In this document: piece by piece, positions 3,684 through 10,947 of the stretch
Layout of the letters: each line of letters starts with the position of its first letter
Numbering within the stretch: the stretch's first letter is position 1
DNA from: an uncultured Clostridia bacterium
GTDB lineage: Bacteria; Bacillota; Clostridia; Oscillospirales; Acutalibacteraceae
Length of the DNA stretch: 14,754 nucleotides
Direction of reading: 5' to 3'
NCBI GenBank assembly: GCA_946409885.1
Contig: CAMJYF010000012.1
Coordinates: forward strand, 1 to 14,754
The notes under the pieces: model-generated
What the model saw: only the letters and a program-made list of their open reading frames with translations
The model's database searches: none
Told to the model about the DNA's origin: nothing
Program-made: the position numbers and the translations under genes

Positions 3684-3892
3684 GGATTTGTCGGGGCGCT
3701 TTGCGCCCAGTCGGAAGTCGCCAGTCGGAAGTCGGTAGTCTTCCAAGTCGAAGGCTTCGATGTAACATTTGACAACTTCCTAAACAAAAGTCGGAGCAGA
3801 TGTCGCATATCAGTGGATTCAGCTTCCCCATAGGGGACTTCCGACTTCCCACTGATGACTTCCGACTCGTCGAGCTCTGCTCGACAAATTCC
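3684..3892. repeat. Heptamer inverted-repeat element A
   Basis: The left end runs GGATTTGTCG, then hairpin GGGCGC-TTT-GCGCCC (3694-3708), then five 7-base units of the form AGTCGNN or close to it from 3709. The right end is the mirror image on the minus strand: GGAATTTGTCG (3892-3882), hairpin GTCGAGC/GCTCGAC (3869-3885), then five AGTCNNN-like units with one AGTGGGA. The central 90 or so bases are unique and non-coding. No transposase and no obvious target duplication are seen. The two capped arms in opposite orientation resemble a MITE-like or extragenic palindromic element. Confidence 0.75.
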
Positions 3893-3919: not shown

Positions 3920-3976
3920 GGCCTGCGCGCATTCCCGCGCGGCGGCCGATAGACCTATCAACCTTATAGGTTTTTT
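3920..3976 (+). terminator. Possible short terminator upstream of the met promoter
   Basis: A GC-rich stem (GGCC..CGCGC with GCGCG..GGCC, about 3920-3948) is followed by ACCTAT/ATAGGT (3953-3958 with 3966-3971) and a run of six T (3971-3976). No gene in the window would end here on the plus strand. It may insulate the met promoter from transcripts entering from the repeat element. Confidence 0.35.
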
Positions 3977-3988
3977 CAAAAAAAAGGG

Positions 3989-4017
3989 TTGACAATCCCG
4001 CCGCAGGGTGCTATGAT
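3989..4017 (+). promoter_or_regulatory. Sigma-A promoter of the metQ leader
   Basis: A consensus TTGACA (3989-3994), a 17-base spacer and TATGAT (4012-4017) predict transcription from about 4024. It is among the best promoters in the window. Its transcript runs through the leader peptide and terminator into metQ. Confidence 0.85.
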
Positions 4018-4047
4018 AAATAAAAATCAGAGGAAAGGATACCGCGT

Positions 4048-4140
4048 ATGAAAGCGTATGACGCAACCAACAGAACCGTATGCATGTGCATGACAAAGCC
4101 GGTCGGAAGTCGCTTTACCGTTCGGTATCCCATGCGCTGA
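4048..4140 (+). CDS. Leader peptide with Cys-Met-Cys-Met codons
   Basis: A 30-codon ORF starts at ATG 4048 behind an AGGAAAGG site (4031-4038), about 24 bases from the predicted transcription start, and ends at TGA 4138-4140. Codons 12-15 are TGC ATG TGC ATG (CMCM, 4081-4092). The antiterminator strand begins at 4095, three bases after them, and the terminator hairpin begins 26 bases after the stop. This is the architecture of a ribosome-stalling attenuator for an operon that imports methionine. The peptide has no other recognisable feature and is probably not functional as a protein. Proposed role: sense charged Cys- and Met-tRNA. A chance ORF is possible, but promoter, ribosome site, codon content and RNA pairing all agree. 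Confidence 0.72.
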   Translation: MKAYDATNRTVCMCMTKPVGSRFTVRYPMR

Positions 4141-4175
4141 TTTTTGGGACGGTAAATACGGTTTCCGGAGGCTTT
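4095..4175 (+). promoter_or_regulatory. Antiterminator stem of the metQ attenuator
   Basis: AAAGCC (4095-4100) pairs with GGCTTT (4170-4175). TCGGAAGTCG (4103-4112) pairs with CGGTTTCCGG (4159-4168), including G-U pairs. TTTACCGT (4114-4121) pairs with ACGGTAAA (4149-4156), and CCCA/TGGG adds an inner helix. The stem of about 24 pairs consumes the entire 5' arm of the terminator, so the two cannot coexist. A ribosome stalled at the CMCM codons leaves it free; a ribosome at the stop codon sits in its loop and disrupts it. Confidence 0.7.
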
Positions 4176-4197
4176 TTCAGGTCTCCGTTCTTTTTTT
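4166..4197 (+). terminator. Attenuator terminator upstream of metQ
   Basis: CGGAGGC (4166-4172) pairs with GTCTCCG (4181-4187) with one G-U, and a T-rich tract TTCTTTTTTT follows (4188-4197). It lies between the leader peptide and metQ, so it must be overcome for metQ expression from the upstream promoter. Confidence 0.8.
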
Positions 4198-4223
4198 GCC
4201 ATATCCCGTTATTCCTTCTTGCG

Positions 4224-4261
4224 CTTTACTTTATATTGTGCTATTGTAATATAAAGTGAAG
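4224..4261 (+). promoter_or_regulatory. 14-bp inverted repeat before the metQ ribosome site
   Basis: ACTTTATATT (4228-4237) and AATATAAAGT (4248-4257) are perfect. With one G-U the RNA stem extends to 4224-4261 (14 pairs, 10-base loop). A weak promoter-like TTGCGC-17-TATTGT (4219-4247) overlaps it. It could be an operator over a second metQ promoter or a 5' mRNA hairpin. The ribosome site AAGGAG follows at 4279. Confidence 0.55.
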
Positions 4262-4294
4262 ATAAAAAAATTCTGGAAAAGGAGAACAAAAATC

Positions 4295-5188
4295 ATGAAA
4301 AAGACAATTGCACTGCTGCTGGCGCTGGTATTGACCGTGGGCCTGTTCGCGGCCTGCGGCAAAGCCCCCGCCGAGGACAAAGCCACAAAAACCGACGCCG
4401 CCCCCGCGGGGACCGGCCTGCAGATCGCCATCCCCAACGACACCACCAACGAGGCCCGCGCGCTGATCCTGCTGGAAAACCTGGGCATCATCAAGCTGAA
4501 GGAAGGCGCGGGCGTCACCGCCACCATCCTTGACATTGAGGAGAACCCCTTTAACGTGGATTTCAAAGAGGTGGAAGCCGCGCAGCTGCCCGGCGTGCTG
4601 CAGGACGTGGACTACGCCGTCATCAACTCCAACTTTGCCATTGACGCCGGTCTGGTGCCCGCTGACGACGCCCTGTCGCTGGAAGGCGCCTACTCCGCCT
4701 ACGGCAACATTGTGGCCGTAAAGGAGGGCAACGAGGATACCGCCAAGACCAAGGCGCTGGTGGCCGCGCTGGAGAGCCAAAAGGTGGCCGATTTCATCAA
4801 CGAGAAATACAGCGGCAGCGTCATCAGCGTGGTGGAGAACCCCGGCGACGGCTTTGCGGCTGACGTGGATTACGACGCGCTGGCGGGCGAGACCATCAGC
4901 GTGGGCGCTTCCCCCACGCCCCACGCGGAGATTCTGGCCGTGGCCAAGGAGATTCTGGCCGAAAAGAACATCACCCTGAACGTGGTGGAGTTCACCGATT
5001 ACGTGCAGCCCAACAACGCGGTGGAATCCGGCGAGATCGACGCCAACTACTTCCAGCACAACCCCTACCTGGTGGATTTCAACGCCAACAACGGCACCCA
5101 TATCAACGCGGTCTCCTACATCCATGTGGAGCCTCTGGGCATCTACGGCGGCAAGCAGACCAGCCTTGACCCCGTGACCGCCAAATAA
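4295..5188 (+). CDS. metQ: Circularly permuted MetQ-type methionine-binding lipoprotein
   Basis: The start is ATG 4295, ten bases after AAGGAG; the in-frame GTG at 4256 lies inside a hairpin and is rejected. The 297-residue protein has a lipoprotein signal with lipobox LFAAC (Cys21), then a short linker. Residues 41-183 carry the motifs that form the second half of ordinary MetQ: IAIPNDTTNEARALILL, LDIEENP, VEAAQLPGVLQDVDYAVINSN. A linker (184-199) leads to residues 200-297, which carry the normally N-terminal half: VGASPTPHAEIL, VEFTDYVQPN, IDANYFQHNPYL, VEPLGIYGGKQTSLD. Ordinary MetQ reads SLDxxxDGxxIAIPND continuously; here that point forms the two ends of the mature protein. All halves needed for the two-lobed binding fold are present once, so function is likely retained. 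Predicted to capture methionine for MetN-MetI. Confidence 0.92.
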   Translation: MKKTIALLLALVLTVGLFAACGKAPAEDKATKTDAAPAGTGLQIAIPNDTTNEARALILLENLGIIKLKEGAGVTATILDIEENPFNVDFKEVEAAQLPGVLQDVDYAVINSNFAIDAGLVPADDALSLEGAYSAYGNIVAVKEGNEDTAKTKALVAALESQKVADFINEKYSGSVISVVENPGDGFAADVDYDALAGETISVGASPTPHAEILAVAKEILAEKNITLNVVEFTDYVQPNNAVESGEIDANYFQHNPYLVDFNANNGTHINAVSYIHVEPLGIYGGKQTSLDPVTAK

Positions 5189-5247
5189 CAGTCGGCTGCG
5201 CCGTCTGTTATCAGTCGCCAGTCGCCAGTCGTGAGTCGCCAGTCCCT
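5185..5247. repeat. Heptamer element B (half element)
   Basis: The hairpin ATAACAG-t-CGGC / GCCG-t-CTGTTAT (5185-5211) contains the metQ stop codon TAA (5186-5188). Four AGTCGNN units follow from 5213 (NN = CC, CC, TG, CC), then AGTCCC leading into CCCTTCGGG. The same CCCTTCGGG follows the heptamers in element C. No mirrored right arm was found, so this is a solo or decayed half. The hairpin may also serve as the metQ 3' end, though there is no T tract. Confidence 0.7.
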
Positions 5248-5339
5248 TCGGGAAGGCGGCAGAAAAGATATCCCGCGTTTCCGTATGGAAGGCGCTTGAT
5301 CTGACGATTGGCTGCCGGCGGCTGATTTTTAAATAGAGA

Positions 5340-5368
5340 TTGATTTTCGCGCAAAATAATGCTATCAT
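5340..5368 (+). promoter_or_regulatory. Sigma-A promoter upstream of metNI
   Basis: TTGATT (5340-5345), a 17-base spacer and TATCAT (5363-5368) predict transcription from about 5375. It would give metN-metI their own supply independent of the metQ attenuator, with a leader of about 265 bases. Confidence 0.65.
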
Positions 5369-5397
5369 AAAGCACAGAAAACGCATACGGGGTGGTC

Positions 5398-5592
5398 ATG
5401 ATGAGCATGGAGGACTGCGACGAGTTGCTGGAATGCGCCGCAACGGACGCGGCCATTACCGCCGCGGAAGCCGGTTTACGGCAGGGCGGCGGGCTGCATC
5501 CGGCGGAGGAGGCCTTTGCGGCTTTGCGGAGGAAACACTTTGGAGACGCAAGAGGCGCTGCTGACAGAAGGCGCCTTGTGGGAATTGGATGA
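5398..5592 (+). CDS. Small ORF between metQ and metN, possibly frameshifted
   Basis: This ORF starts MMSMEDCDELLEC about 23 bases after the predicted transcription start and ends at TGA 5590-5592. A GTG at 5392 would add two residues. The middle (DAAITAAEAGLRQG, then AEEAFAALRRKHFG) weakly resembles the toxin-binding tail of Phd/RelB-type antitoxins. From about 5540 another frame looks more protein-like (TQEALLTEGALWELDEIYG) and stops at 5645-5647, overlapping the metN start. It may therefore be one small gene of about 80 codons broken by a frameshift. The Met- and Cys-rich start is also compatible with a second leader peptide. I do not recognise the product. Confidence 0.35.
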   Translation: MMSMEDCDELLECAATDAAITAAEAGLRQGGGLHPAEEAFAALRRKHFGDARGAADRRRLVGIG

Positions 5593-5639
5593 GATATACG
5601 GTACGCAAAAAGCAATTGCTGATACCGACGAGATAGAAA

Positions 5640-6638
5640 ATGATTGAACTGAAACATTTGACAAAGACCTTTCACACCGCGTCGGGGGACGTGCCGGCGC
5701 TGTCCGACGTGTCGCTGACCGTTGAAGACGGCGATATCTACGGCATCATCGGCATGTCCGGCGCGGGCAAAAGCACGCTGGTGCGCTGCATCAATATGCT
5801 GGAGCGGCCCACGGACGGGCAGGTGCTGATCAACGGCGTGGATATCGGCTCCCTTTCCAAAAAGGAGCTGCGGGCCCAGCGGCGGGAGATCACCATGATC
5901 TTTCAGAGCTTTAACCTGCTGATGCAGCGCACCTGCCTGCGGAACGTGTGTTTTCCGCTGGAGCTGGCGGGCGTGAAAAAGCAGGACGCCAGAAAACGCG
6001 CCATGGAGCTGCTGGAGATCGTGGGCCTGCCCGATAAGGCGGAGGCCTACCCGGCGCAGCTTTCCGGCGGCCAGCAGCAGCGTATCGCCATCGCCCGGGC
6101 GCTGGCCAGCTCCCCCAAGGTGCTGCTGTGCGACGAAGCCACCAGCGCGCTGGACCCCAAAACCACCCATTCCATTCTGGAGCTGATACGGGATATCAAC
6201 GCCAAGATGGGCATCACCGTCATCGTCATCACCCACCAGATGAGCGTGGTGGAGGACATCTGCCGCCACGTGGCCATTCTGGACGGGGGCAAGGTGGTGG
6301 AGGAAGGAAGCGTCAGCGACGTGTTCGCCTCGCCGAAATCCGACGCCGCCCGGCGTCTGGTGTTCCCGGAGGGCTATACCCCCTCCGTGTTTGACGCGGA
6401 CCCCGACGTACATAAGATCCGGGTGCTGTTCAACGGCGACGATACGGCCACGGAGCCGGTGATCGCCAAAATGGCCGTGGAGCTGGGGGTGTTCGCCAAC
6501 ATTATGGCGGCCTCCACCAAAACGGTGCAGGGCAAGGCCTACGGCACCATGCTGCTGGGGGTGGACAGCGCGGAGGAGGCCATCCGTCTGATCGACTACC
6601 TGAAGCGATACGGCGTTTACGCGGAGGAGGTGCGCTGA
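5640..6638 (+). CDS. metN: Methionine ABC transporter ATP-binding protein
   Basis: The protein has 332 residues. Walker A is GMSGAGKST (38-46), the Q-loop is FQSFNLL (Gln89), the ABC signature is LSGGQQQR (141-148), Walker B is VLLCDEATSALD (Asp165, Glu166), and the switch His is His199 in ITHQ. Residues about 258-332 form the NIL domain found in MetN, which binds methionine in the cytoplasm and inhibits transport when the pool is full. The FQSFNLL and NIL features separate MetN from other polar amino-acid ATPases. It starts at ATG 5640. Its stop codon overlaps the metI start by one base (TGATG), showing tight coupling. It powers import of methionine delivered by MetQ. Confidence 0.95.
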   Translation: MIELKHLTKTFHTASGDVPALSDVSLTVEDGDIYGIIGMSGAGKSTLVRCINMLERPTDGQVLINGVDIGSLSKKELRAQRREITMIFQSFNLLMQRTCLRNVCFPLELAGVKKQDARKRAMELLEIVGLPDKAEAYPAQLSGGQQQRIAIARALASSPKVLLCDEATSALDPKTTHSILELIRDINAKMGITVIVITHQMSVVEDICRHVAILDGGKVVEEGSVSDVFASPKSDAARRLVFPEGYTPSVFDADPDVHKIRVLFNGDDTATEPVIAKMAVELGVFANIMAASTKTVQGKAYGTMLLGVDSAEEAIRLIDYLKRYGVYAEEVR

Positions 6639-7345
6639 TGTTTACCAATGTGTTTACCCCGGAAAGCTGGGCGGAGGCCGTCTCCGTCATCAAATCCGAG
6701 TTTTTGATGGGCATATGGGAGACCTTTTACGTGACGGTGGTCTCCACCTTTTTCGCGCTGGTCATCGGCCTGCCCCTGGGCGTGCTGCTGGTGGCCGGGG
6801 ATAAGGACGGCGTGCTGCCGCTGCCCCGGGCCCTGATGCAGGTGCTGAACGTGATCATCAACCTGCTGCGGTCCATCCCGTTCCTGATCCTGATGATCAT
6901 GGCCTTTCCCATCGCGCGGCTGCTGATCGGCACCACCATCGGCACCAAGGCCAGTATCGTCCCGCTGGTGATCGCGGCCTTCCCCTTTGTGGCGCGGCTG
7001 GTGGAATCCAGCCTGCGGGAGGTAAACCCCAACATCATAGAGGCGGCCCAGAGCATGGGCGCCTCCCCCCTGCAGATCATCTGCAAGGTGATGCTGCCGG
7101 AAAGCGTGCCCTCCCTGATCTCCAACGCCACCATCGCCATCACTACCATTCTGGGCTATTCCGCCATGAGCGGCATCATCGGCGGCGGCGGGCTCGGCAA
7201 GATCGCCATCAACTACGGCTATTACCGGTACAAATACCTTATCATGTACGCGGCGGTGATTCTGCTGGTGCTGCTGGTGCAGCTGTTCCAGTCCCTGGGC
7301 ACCAGGCTGGCCGTGAAGATGGATAAACGGCTGAAGAACAACTGA
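6638..7345 (+). CDS. metI: Methionine ABC transporter permease
   Basis: This 235-residue integral membrane protein has five likely membrane segments (about 25-53, 66-97, 104-125, 160-185 and 198-222). The EAA loop that docks on the ATPase is EAAQSMGASPLQIICKVMLPE (about 135-155), with the conserved Gly141. IIGGGGLGKIAINYGYYRY (about 180-198) is typical of MetI. Length matches the family. The start overlaps the metN stop, so the two are translated together. With MetN it forms the transport channel for L-methionine and possibly D-methionine. A heptamer repeat element begins 18 bases after the stop. Confidence 0.95.
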   Translation: MFTNVFTPESWAEAVSVIKSEFLMGIWETFYVTVVSTFFALVIGLPLGVLLVAGDKDGVLPLPRALMQVLNVIINLLRSIPFLILMIMAFPIARLLIGTTIGTKASIVPLVIAAFPFVARLVESSLREVNPNIIEAAQSMGASPLQIICKVMLPESVPSLISNATIAITTILGYSAMSGIIGGGGLGKIAINYGYYRYKYLIMYAAVILLVLLVQLFQSLGTRLAVKMDKRLKNN

Positions 7346-10071: not shown

Positions 10072-10947
10072 ATGAAGATAACGGAAGTATTGCGACAGGA
10101 CAGGCTGCTGCTGTCCTTTGAGGTGTTCCCGCCCAAGACGGATACGGCGTTTGCCTCGGTGAAAAACGCCACGGAGGAGATGGCCAGGCTGCGGCCCTCA
10201 TTTATGAGCGTCACCTACGGCGCGGGGGGCGGCACCAGCCGCTACACGCTGGACATCGCCCGCAACATCAAAGAGCGCTACGGCGTGCCCACGCTGGCGC
10301 ACCTGACCTGCGTCTCCTCCTCCAAAGAGACGGTCCACGCCCGCATCCGGGAGATCATCGACGCGGGCATTGAGAACGTGATGGCGCTGCGGGGCGACCT
10401 GACGCCGGAGCTGGAGGCCAGCGACCGTTCAAAGTGGGACTACCGCCACGCGGCGGAGCTGGTGCGGGAGCTGAAGGAGAGCGGCGCGGACCTGTGCATC
10501 GGCGGCGCCTGCTACCCGGAGATCCACCCCGAAAGCCCCAACCAGAAGGAGGATATCCGCTACCTGAAGGAAAAAGTGGAGGCGGGGTGCGAATTTCTGA
10601 CCACCCAGATGTTTTTCGACAACAACCTGCTGTACAACTTTTTGTATAAGATCCGCGAGGCGGGCGTCACCGTGCCCGTCATTCCGGGGGTGATGCCCAT
10701 CACCAACGCCAACCAGGTGGCGCGGGCGGTCAAGCTGTCCGGGTCCTTTATGCCGGTGCGGTTCAAGAGCCTGGTGGATAAGTTCGGCTCCTCCCCCGCC
10801 GCCATGATGCAGGCGGGCATTGCCTACGCCACGGACCAGATTATCGACCTGTACGCCAACGGCATCAAAAACGTCCACGTCTATTCCATGAACAAGCCGG
10901 AGGTGGCGGCAGCCATCCGCCGGAACCTGTCGGATATCGTGGGGTAA
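10072..10947 (+). CDS. metF: 5,10-methylenetetrahydrofolate reductase
   Basis: The protein has 291 residues, close to the usual single-domain bacterial MetF. It is an FAD-containing TIM barrel that makes 5-methyl-THF, the methyl donor for methionine synthesis. Diagnostic stretches are SFEVFPPK with catalytic Glu17, FMSVTYGAGGGTS, NVMALRGD with Asp109 (folate binding), ACYPEIHPES, FLTTQMFFDN with Gln179, and PVIPGVMPI. There is no C-terminal SAM-binding domain, as expected for bacteria. A GAAAGGAAG site precedes ATG 10072. It lies between a toxin-antitoxin pair and sbcDC, not beside metQNI; the sbcD start is 26 bases downstream, suggesting a metF-sbcD-sbcC transcript. No folate or SAM riboswitch and no promoter is evident in the 45 bases upstream. 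Confidence 0.95.
   Translation: MKITEVLRQDRLLLSFEVFPPKTDTAFASVKNATEEMARLRPSFMSVTYGAGGGTSRYTLDIARNIKERYGVPTLAHLTCVSSSKETVHARIREIIDAGIENVMALRGDLTPELEASDRSKWDYRHAAELVRELKESGADLCIGGACYPEIHPESPNQKEDIRYLKEKVEAGCEFLTTQMFFDNNLLYNFLYKIREAGVTVPVIPGVMPITNANQVARAVKLSGSFMPVRFKSLVDKFGSSPAAMMQAGIAYATDQIIDLYANGIKNVHVYSMNKPEVAAAIRRNLSDIVG

Follow-up and report, generated by a model that had tools for sequence, protein, structure and literature searches.

Control of methionine genes in Gram-positive bacteria is usually described in terms of riboswitches, T-boxes and repressors. Ribosome-mediated attenuation of transcription is classically represented by leaders of the trp, his and ilv type, and those of the ilv type read several amino acids. 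Leader-peptide attenuation itself has long been known; the probable attenuator described here would read methionine together with cysteine.

The closest described case is metL (SLIV_29928) of Streptomyces lividans TK24, an ORF of sequence MSTTSDRTPATEATTTPGARCMCRRMCAF located before metNIQ and presented by its authors as a Met-dependent attenuator (PMC8079986). It is among the attenuators identified through RNA-seq and is leaderless, and the sections of the article devoted to it mention that no typical Rho-independent terminator was found (PMC8079986). The end of the metL peptide, ...RCMCRRMCAF, holds both CMC and MC, and its Cys codons go unremarked in those same sections (PMC8079986). The leader of the present work likewise places a Met/Cys peptide in front of a methionine import operon. 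Unlike metL, which is a single prediction in an actinobacterium, it displays an SD-led ORF, an intrinsic terminator, an antiterminator and an SD-sequestering helix, and leaders of its type span several families of one Clostridia order. Cysteine leader peptides are also described for actinobacterial cys operons, the mycobacterial ones being without a conserved terminator hairpin (PMC1262725), and the uORFC-8-2 motif found before cysS in Rhodobacterales finishes with a run of U interpreted as an intrinsic terminator (PMC8632094). These are likewise short ORFs with Cys codons but, in the portions of both sources that concern them, they involve cysteine only, other genes and other phyla. In bacilli, His leader peptides precede hisS paralogs, where attenuation is described in place of a T-box (PMC2965389); this is also leader-peptide attenuation in Firmicutes but, as far as the relevant part of that article goes, it deals with histidine and with tRNA synthetase-like genes. 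A Met+Cys attenuator in Clostridia was not found in the open-licence literature, where the Streptomyces metL is the sole methionine leader encountered.

The window analyzed here is a stretch of 14,754 nucleotides from an uncultured Clostridia bacterium, and all positions given below refer to it. We regard positions 3989-4197 as a ribosome-mediated transcription attenuator sensing charged tRNA-Met and tRNA-Cys and controlling metQ, probably as part of metQNI, with a probability of roughly 0.87. The following features are considered, together with the basis on which each was assigned.

3989-4017, + strand: sigma-70-type promoter, TTGACA-17-TATGAT, with extended -10 TG (promoter-like site scoring)
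4024-4044, + strand: helix I, 5' strand, made of 4024-4030 (AAATCAG) and 4037-4044 (GGATACCG) (MFE structure of 4024-4200)
4048-4140, + strand: leader peptide ORF, 30 codons plus TGA (SD-led ORF; leaders in five other loci of the genus)
4081-4092, + strand: regulatory codons TGC ATG TGC ATG (Cys-Met-Cys-Met), codons 12-15 (Met/Cys clusters in relatives)
4095-4123, + strand: antiterminator (helix II), 5' strand (folding)
4123-4143, + strand: helix I, 3' strand, made of 4123-4130 and 4137-4143 and spanning the leader stop codon 4138-4140 (folding)
4147-4175, + strand: antiterminator (helix II), 3' strand (folding; 4166-4175 common to the terminator)
4166-4187, + strand: intrinsic terminator hairpin (helix III), 9 pairs, loop of 4 (folding)
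4188-4197, + strand: terminator U tract, TTCTTTTTTT (sequence)
4295-5188, + strand: metQ, methionine-binding lipoprotein, circularly permuted, first regulated gene (PF03180, 265.6 bits)
5640-6638, + strand: metN, ABC ATPase with NIL domain, presumed to belong to the regulated unit (PF00005 and PF09383)
6638-7345, + strand: metI, ABC permease, presumed to belong to the regulated unit (NF008049, above cut-off)

Several features of a trp-type attenuator are present: a leader ORF, a cluster of cognate codons, an intrinsic terminator and, just 3' of the codons, an antiterminator that excludes it. As in the trp, his and ilv systems, a stop codon is placed so as to mask the middle strand. Unlike them, this leader would read Met and Cys, and a further helix, helix I, includes its own ribosome-binding site. 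The promoter obtained the top score among the 13 promoter-like sites of the window, and a similar extended -10 promoter is readable in five related loci (L040, L049, L052, L053 and L054; the window itself is L038). The ORF, whose translation is MKAYDATNRTVCMCMTKPVGSRFTVRYPMR, displays a start, a ribosome site and a stop and is predicted to be translatable. Helix II begins after a gap of two bases from the Cys-Met-Cys-Met codons, and the terminator sits between the ORF and metQ. Out of the 19 short SD-led ORFs of the window that are followed by a terminator (11 + 8), only this leader attains 4 Met/Cys in 8 codons. All the parts that an earlier note on this DNA had named at 3989-4197 (promoter, 30-codon ORF, Cys-Met-Cys-Met codons, antiterminator and terminator) were found there, and the ten bases 4166-4175 are indeed common, by folding, to the terminator and to the 3' strand of the antiterminator. 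The antiterminator stands as claimed, with a different extent and number of pairs: 26 main pairs between 4095-4123 and 4147-4175, instead of 24 pairs with inner limits at 4121 and 4149. Between the terminator and metQ, a perfect 10-base inverted repeat, ACTTTATATT-N10-AATATAAAGT, occupies 4228-4257 and a weaker one is seen at the matching place of L040; it is a possible operator or second promoter after the terminator.

The mutual exclusion of these structures is apparent upon folding. Helix II pairs 4095-4100, 4103-4112 and 4114-4123 with 4147-4156, 4159-4168 and 4170-4175, for an energy of -31.1 kcal/mol (z -2.73, with 2 of 200 shuffles equally good), and the terminator hairpin 4166-4187 reaches -12.4 kcal/mol. 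A third pairing, which the earlier note had missed, was observed in the fold of 4024-4200: helix I joins 4024-4030 with 4137-4143 and 4037-4044 with 4123-4130, so that the Shine-Dalgarno region of the leader, covered by its 5' strand, is paired with the end of the ORF around the stop codon. Helix I is incompatible with the antiterminator and compatible with the terminator. When no ribosome is present, the fold of 4024-4200 contains the SD helix and the terminator (-53.7 kcal/mol) and that of 4026-4197 contains the antiterminator (-53.0 kcal/mol); the two predicted states are near-equal, their energies being given for slightly different ends. A ribosome placed on the first Cys codon leaves 90% of the terminator 5' arm paired upstream at -31.1 kcal/mol. 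With a ribosome at the stop codon, a residual pairing of -2.1 kcal/mol involves 0.60 of the arm, and 4151-4197 folds as the terminator at -12.4 kcal/mol. Such folding with and without a ribosome mask had been proposed in the earlier note. Were the ribosome to stall at the last Met codon, it would cover part of helix II, with 0.40 of the arm paired against 0.90 at the first Cys codon; according to these folds, stalling at the first Cys codon should be the more effective of the two in the window.

From these features we infer stalling, termination and regulation in the cell according to a trp-like logic of three strands, namely the SD region, the end of the ORF and the 5' arm of the terminator. 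Transcription would start near 4024. A leader that remains untranslated would adopt the SD helix and the terminator by default, the formation of helix I breaking helix II and allowing the terminator to form. Upon free translation, the ribosome would reach the stop codon at 4138-4140 and cover the middle strand, the terminator would form and the operon would be off. Under a shortage of charged Cys- or Met-tRNA, the ribosome would stall at 4081-4092 and leave the middle strand free; 4095-4123 could then pair with 4147-4175 before the 3' arm of the terminator is made, the polymerase would read on and the operon would be on. Because very severe methionine starvation would also hit initiation, the operon should presumably come down again under such conditions.

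Riboswitch and T-box explanations were addressed by covariance searches with Rfam. No family matched the window at the curated cut-off and the lax matches obtained in 3930-4300 were all far below their cut-offs. For the T-box (RF00230), nothing in the window attained the gathering score and no match was obtained in 3930-4300 at E up to 5, and the SAM (S-box) and other SAM riboswitches gave no match in the window with curated Rfam nor, up to the cut-off, in 3930-4300. S-box and T-box explanations were dropped on these grounds, which bear out the former remark that neither RNA is visible at the leader. Similarity searches with the DNA of the whole leader returned short matches, with E up to 0.01, in 33 of 300 genomes of the family besides its own; a control scan that took in loci L009-L037 detected there no Met/Cys ORF (4 of 8 codons) followed by a terminator. 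The same search found nothing in the plasmid collection and no second copy of the leader at the DNA level in the window's own genome.

In the genus, metQ was found in 17 of 26 genomes and the leader precedes it in six of the 17 loci (the window, L040, L049, L052, L053 and L054). At most 420 bases upstream of metQ were read (265 only for L042), and the 11 other loci, including that of the nearest metQ (L039), showed no leader in the bases read. The codon cluster is MCMCM or CMCM in five of the leaders and MCMM in L049. The five leaders other than L049 also have the SD sequence GGATACCG in common, with its complement CGGTATC located close to the stop codon; L049 has a different SD sequence, paired in the fold with a different partner. 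Retention of the stems with loss of the ORF or of its Met/Cys codons, which had been put forward as evidence against an attenuator, was looked for in the relatives and the opposite was found: those bearing the leader keep the Met/Cys cluster, the terminator and the competing hairpin, and most of the other sequence differs. Covariation of helix II in close pairs appears modest. Among 30 pairs compared between L038 and L040, 23 are the same, 2 show one-sided and 2 two-sided changes and 3 are broken, and 16 of 39 pairs are broken between L198 and L199. In the MAFFT alignment, the two types of leader are offset by one column.

Codon patterns, which ignore the neighboring genes, were used to extend the search. 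The pattern TRTGYATGTGYATGAYR, too strict for variant clusters like the one in L049, matched 3 of 398 genomes of the family; the window alone is a leader, the other two matches being rejected as unrelated frames. A looser pattern matched 14 places in 13 of 394 genomes of the order. Eight places were rejected on reading and six are leader ORFs with terminators, located before metN (L126, L127 and L136), metQ-metN (L134), metY (L131) and an M20 amidohydrolase (L125); these genes were named from sequence, with NCBIfam for the M20 protein, and three of the genomes were also matched in the MetN search described below. In the contigs of named genomes, 63 loci matched and 58 were rejected on the basis of reading frame and context. 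Among the five leaders that remained, L077, L097, L104 and L118 are judged to be the same places as L040, L052, L053 and L054, and L079 is new. The M20 amidohydrolase (TIGR01891) that follows the Met/Cys leader attenuator of L125/L228 is itself followed by a gene reading like an adenine deaminase; the M20 enzyme is perhaps a deacylase for Met or Cys salvage.

The L079 locus (contig JAJRYV010000092.1, MAG Dive96_bin3.88) is a distant case. It carries a tandem pair of leaders, MNQLNIKNIAIMISMCMCMCQYSKMFGRRSG and MKTIFITTQAEAMRLSHGIFTMRMCMCMMKVSFYGKG, both with a terminator of their own, in front of genes which read from sequence as metY and metX, and the MCMCM motif recurs in it. The RpoB of this MAG is 60-61% identical to proteins of Ignavibacteriae, Flavobacterium and Balneola (the top three among 12 proteins compared) and lies, in a tree of RpoB, outside the group made of Clostridium, a member of the class and Peribacillus. 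The tree row G431 was disregarded on account of a very long branch, probably caused by a wrong reading frame, and no RpoB match was obtained in the genome of the window. As its RpoB is nearer to Bacteroidota-type sequences than to Clostridia, L079 would not originate from Clostridia, unless the contig was misbinned.

A survey that does not depend on codons was conducted with the MetN of the window as the query. It returned 80 places in 76 of 295 genomes of the order, of which 79 were scanned, one being left out as its contig began inside metN; some flanks were short (319 bases for L184). Leaders were defined as a short SD-led ORF in which 4 or more of 8 codons are Met/Cys, followed by a terminator. 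On the sense strand, such ORFs were present in 30 loci and followed by a terminator in 25; L176, with a TTG start about 1.7 kb upstream, was dropped and 24 were kept. On the antisense strand, used as a control, such ORFs appeared in 7 loci, with one terminator, located inside a coding region. At the curated cut-off of Rfam, a T-box lies before metN in 5 of 78 loci (L190, L194, L197, L203 and L213), none of which belongs to the 24 loci with a Met/Cys leader; SAM riboswitches were absent from the survey loci at curated cut-offs. A T-box before metN is also a sensor of tRNA charging at the same operon, but it binds the tRNA directly and has no ORF. Neither a leader nor a T-box was found in 50 of the 79 loci, including that of the window, which is counted as a miss since the fetched flank does not include its leader. 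The distribution of the leader is patchy, here as in the genus, which speaks against the model. The recurrence of codon clusters, terminator and competing hairpin before methionine genes supports the earlier reading of the locus as a ribosome-mediated attenuator, the mechanism itself being the probable interpretation of this arrangement. This wide recurrence had escaped the earlier note. Such a system, reading two amino acids, would explain how methionine uptake is controlled in some Clostridia where this operon has neither S-box nor T-box. Since the curated models of Rfam flagged no such leader in the window or in the survey loci, many more may be waiting.

The Met/Cys leader of the window is more than a chance occurrence. 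In 96 other loci (1.08 Mb, both strands), 3 of the 221 short SD-led ORFs with a terminator score 4 Met/Cys in 8 codons, and a score of 5 was not seen. When all 190 pairs of residues were compared, Cys+Met ranked first at 6 of 8 codons, with 15 loci against 7 for the next pair, Ala+Met; it ranked second at 5 of 8 (19 loci against 22 for Met+Arg) and was outside the top 14 at 4 of 8. Among single residues, Met ranked first at 4 of 8 (19, the next being Arg with 9) and third at 3 of 8. That the leader could be an accident or an artefact of repeat-rich intergenic DNA is suggested by GTCGGAAGTCG-like repeats nearby and by a similar run within the antiterminator, yet L040 keeps the structure though the run is changed, and the relatives as well as the antisense, residue-pair and 96-locus controls contradict this explanation, to which we attach a negligible probability.

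The contribution of cysteine was evaluated in a manner that avoids circularity: 23 ORFs, L176 included, were picked on Met alone and compared with the remaining 104 ORFs. Of the 540 other residues, 53 (9.8%) are cysteines, compared with 3.0% in the remaining ORFs, an odds ratio of 3.5 with a p-value of 3.7e-11, which is too small as related sequences were counted separately and unweighted. The excess is broad, Cys being present in 22 of the 23 ORFs; 41 of the 53 Cys adjoin a Met, and both codons are used (TGC 72, TGT 19). Phenylalanine is also enriched (7.0% vs 3.8%, p 0.001) and leucine is depleted. This enrichment in ORFs selected on Met only supports the claim that cysteine is read alongside methionine. 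A switch reading Met only, in which the Cys codons would be there for other reasons such as the RNA sequence between Met codons or easily formed ATGTGC repeats, is an unlikely explanation, if one to be taken seriously. It is favored by L166, which has a Met cluster without Cys, by L145, L199 and L204, which are mostly Met, and by the nature of the named neighbor genes, which are methionine genes or an amidohydrolase. The Cys enrichment, its breadth, the contact of most Cys with a Met, the use of both codons and the recurrence of MCMCM in the distant L079 argue against it. The leader offers a simple test of joint Cys and Met sensing.

The structural model was then applied to 35 leaders, 11 from the genus, contig and order pattern searches and 24 from the survey, by folding the sequence 3' of a ribosome placed at the first codon of the cluster; in the shuffled controls the terminator arm was kept and only the upstream part was shuffled. 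Antiterminator energies gave a median z of -2.46, with 27 leaders below -1 and 20 below -2, and the mean paired fraction of the terminator arm was 0.78 against 0.59 in shuffles. The antiterminator was little or no better than shuffles in eight leaders (L131, L139, L147, L171, L191, L201, L204 and L206), the arm was unpaired in L195 and less of it was paired than in shuffles in L049 and L198. When the ribosome was placed at the stop codon, pairing energies were small in most leaders, at least 30% of the arm being still weakly paired in 17 of 35, including the window. In most leaders, the end of the ORF doubles as an antiterminator strand. Pairing of the SD region with the 3' part of the leader, extending over 6 bases or more, is seen in 27 of 35 leaders, where 14.5 are expected from shuffles (21 against 11.6 expected in the 24 leaders of the survey), and this pairing is absent in 8 of 35. 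Such numbers would suit a switch set by the frequency of initiation on the leader, through fMet-tRNA or ribosome supply, in which helix I sequesters the ribosome site and the untranslated leader terminates without any stalling at the cluster; this is quite improbable, the clustering of Met and Cys just before the antiterminator being left unexplained. Helix I is more likely a fail-safe within the attenuator model retained here, and its sequestering of the SD region points to a fail-safe that may be general in leader-peptide attenuation.

A functional role of the peptide was also considered. The intact ORF with its ribosome site, and the apparent likeness of MCMCMM to metal-binding clusters, would be compatible with a small Met/Cys-rich peptide, for example copper-binding, whose message is simply ended by the terminator. 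However, beyond the codon cluster the peptides of different families have little in common, the end of the ORF has the second function mentioned above, and five of the six leaders obtained with the gene-blind codon pattern in the order, as well as both leaders of L079, precede methionine genes, so that this role is very improbable. The Met/Cys attenuator remains the preferred reading.

Another short ORF, ending in ...NFR(F/N)GRM followed by a stop or by Cys, was noticed downstream of several Met/Cys attenuators. The loci concerned are L221, L231, L216-L227, L131, L139, L142, L143, L147 and L149, and the DNA of the motif reads ...CGAATGTG(A/C/T). The corresponding pattern matched 12 of 245 genomes of the class, and the reversed pattern, used as a control, gave none among the matches listed. 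All 12 matches are in short ORFs, with the start of the motif 57-117 bases before metY (10 cases) or metQ (2 cases), these genes being named from sequence and, in the window's genome, by NCBIfam. That genome has its own copy before metY (L221/L231; G000:C235:2725-2747, minus strand). The last Arg is CGA in all 12 matches and the next codon is TGA in six and TGY in six; no terminator was seen between this leader and the gene on reading the 12 loci. A separate survey dealt with the 30 best metY loci, drawn from 87 of 138 genomes of the class. The gene start could be located in 27; an R-M-(Cys/stop) frame lies within 150 bases in 13 of them, nine of these read N(F/Y/W)RxGRM and four loci coincide with those found by the pattern. 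This leader looks like a candidate arrest peptide or Cys leader, judging from its sequence. Upstream of metY in L241, a leader of sequence MSHGNTWPMNMYEMADSMCCMQDMMCFSCTPCSEMRM with a terminator apparently combines, within a single ORF, the Met/Cys cluster and the RM-stop end. It is tentatively proposed, with more doubt than confidence, that many Clostridia run their methionine regulon by stacked translation sensors rather than by S- or T-boxes, a Met+Cys attenuator hiding its own ribosome site being accompanied, before metY and some metQ, by an NFR(F/N)GRM-(stop/Cys) arrest peptide. If true, full supply and no translation would both mean off, and the supply of sulfur amino acids would be gauged through the ribosome alone.

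Regarding the downstream genes, the best NCBIfam models for the MetQ and MetN of the window are MetQ and MetN respectively, the former below its cut-off and the latter below its equivalog cut-off. Cotranscription of metQ with metNI is presumed; the gap between metQ and metN (5188-5640) measures 450 bases and contains a small open frame near 5399. Short repeats of the GTCGCCAGTCG/GTCGGAAGTCG type flank metQ in intergenic DNA, at 3700-3760 and 5210-5250. A metF gene (MTHFR, PF02219) is located at 10072-10947, about 2.7 kb after metI. The MetQ of the window is, by sequence comparison, circularly permuted relative to the ordinary protein, with the C-lobe first: its residues 199-284 match 28-113 of the ordinary MetQ of L226, and 40-179 match 125-271. 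Each of its 22 PDB matches falls in two stretches. Based on two sequence markers, the permuted order was observed in all 17 genus loci and in all 16 survey loci with a recognizable metQ, the window being included in both sets.
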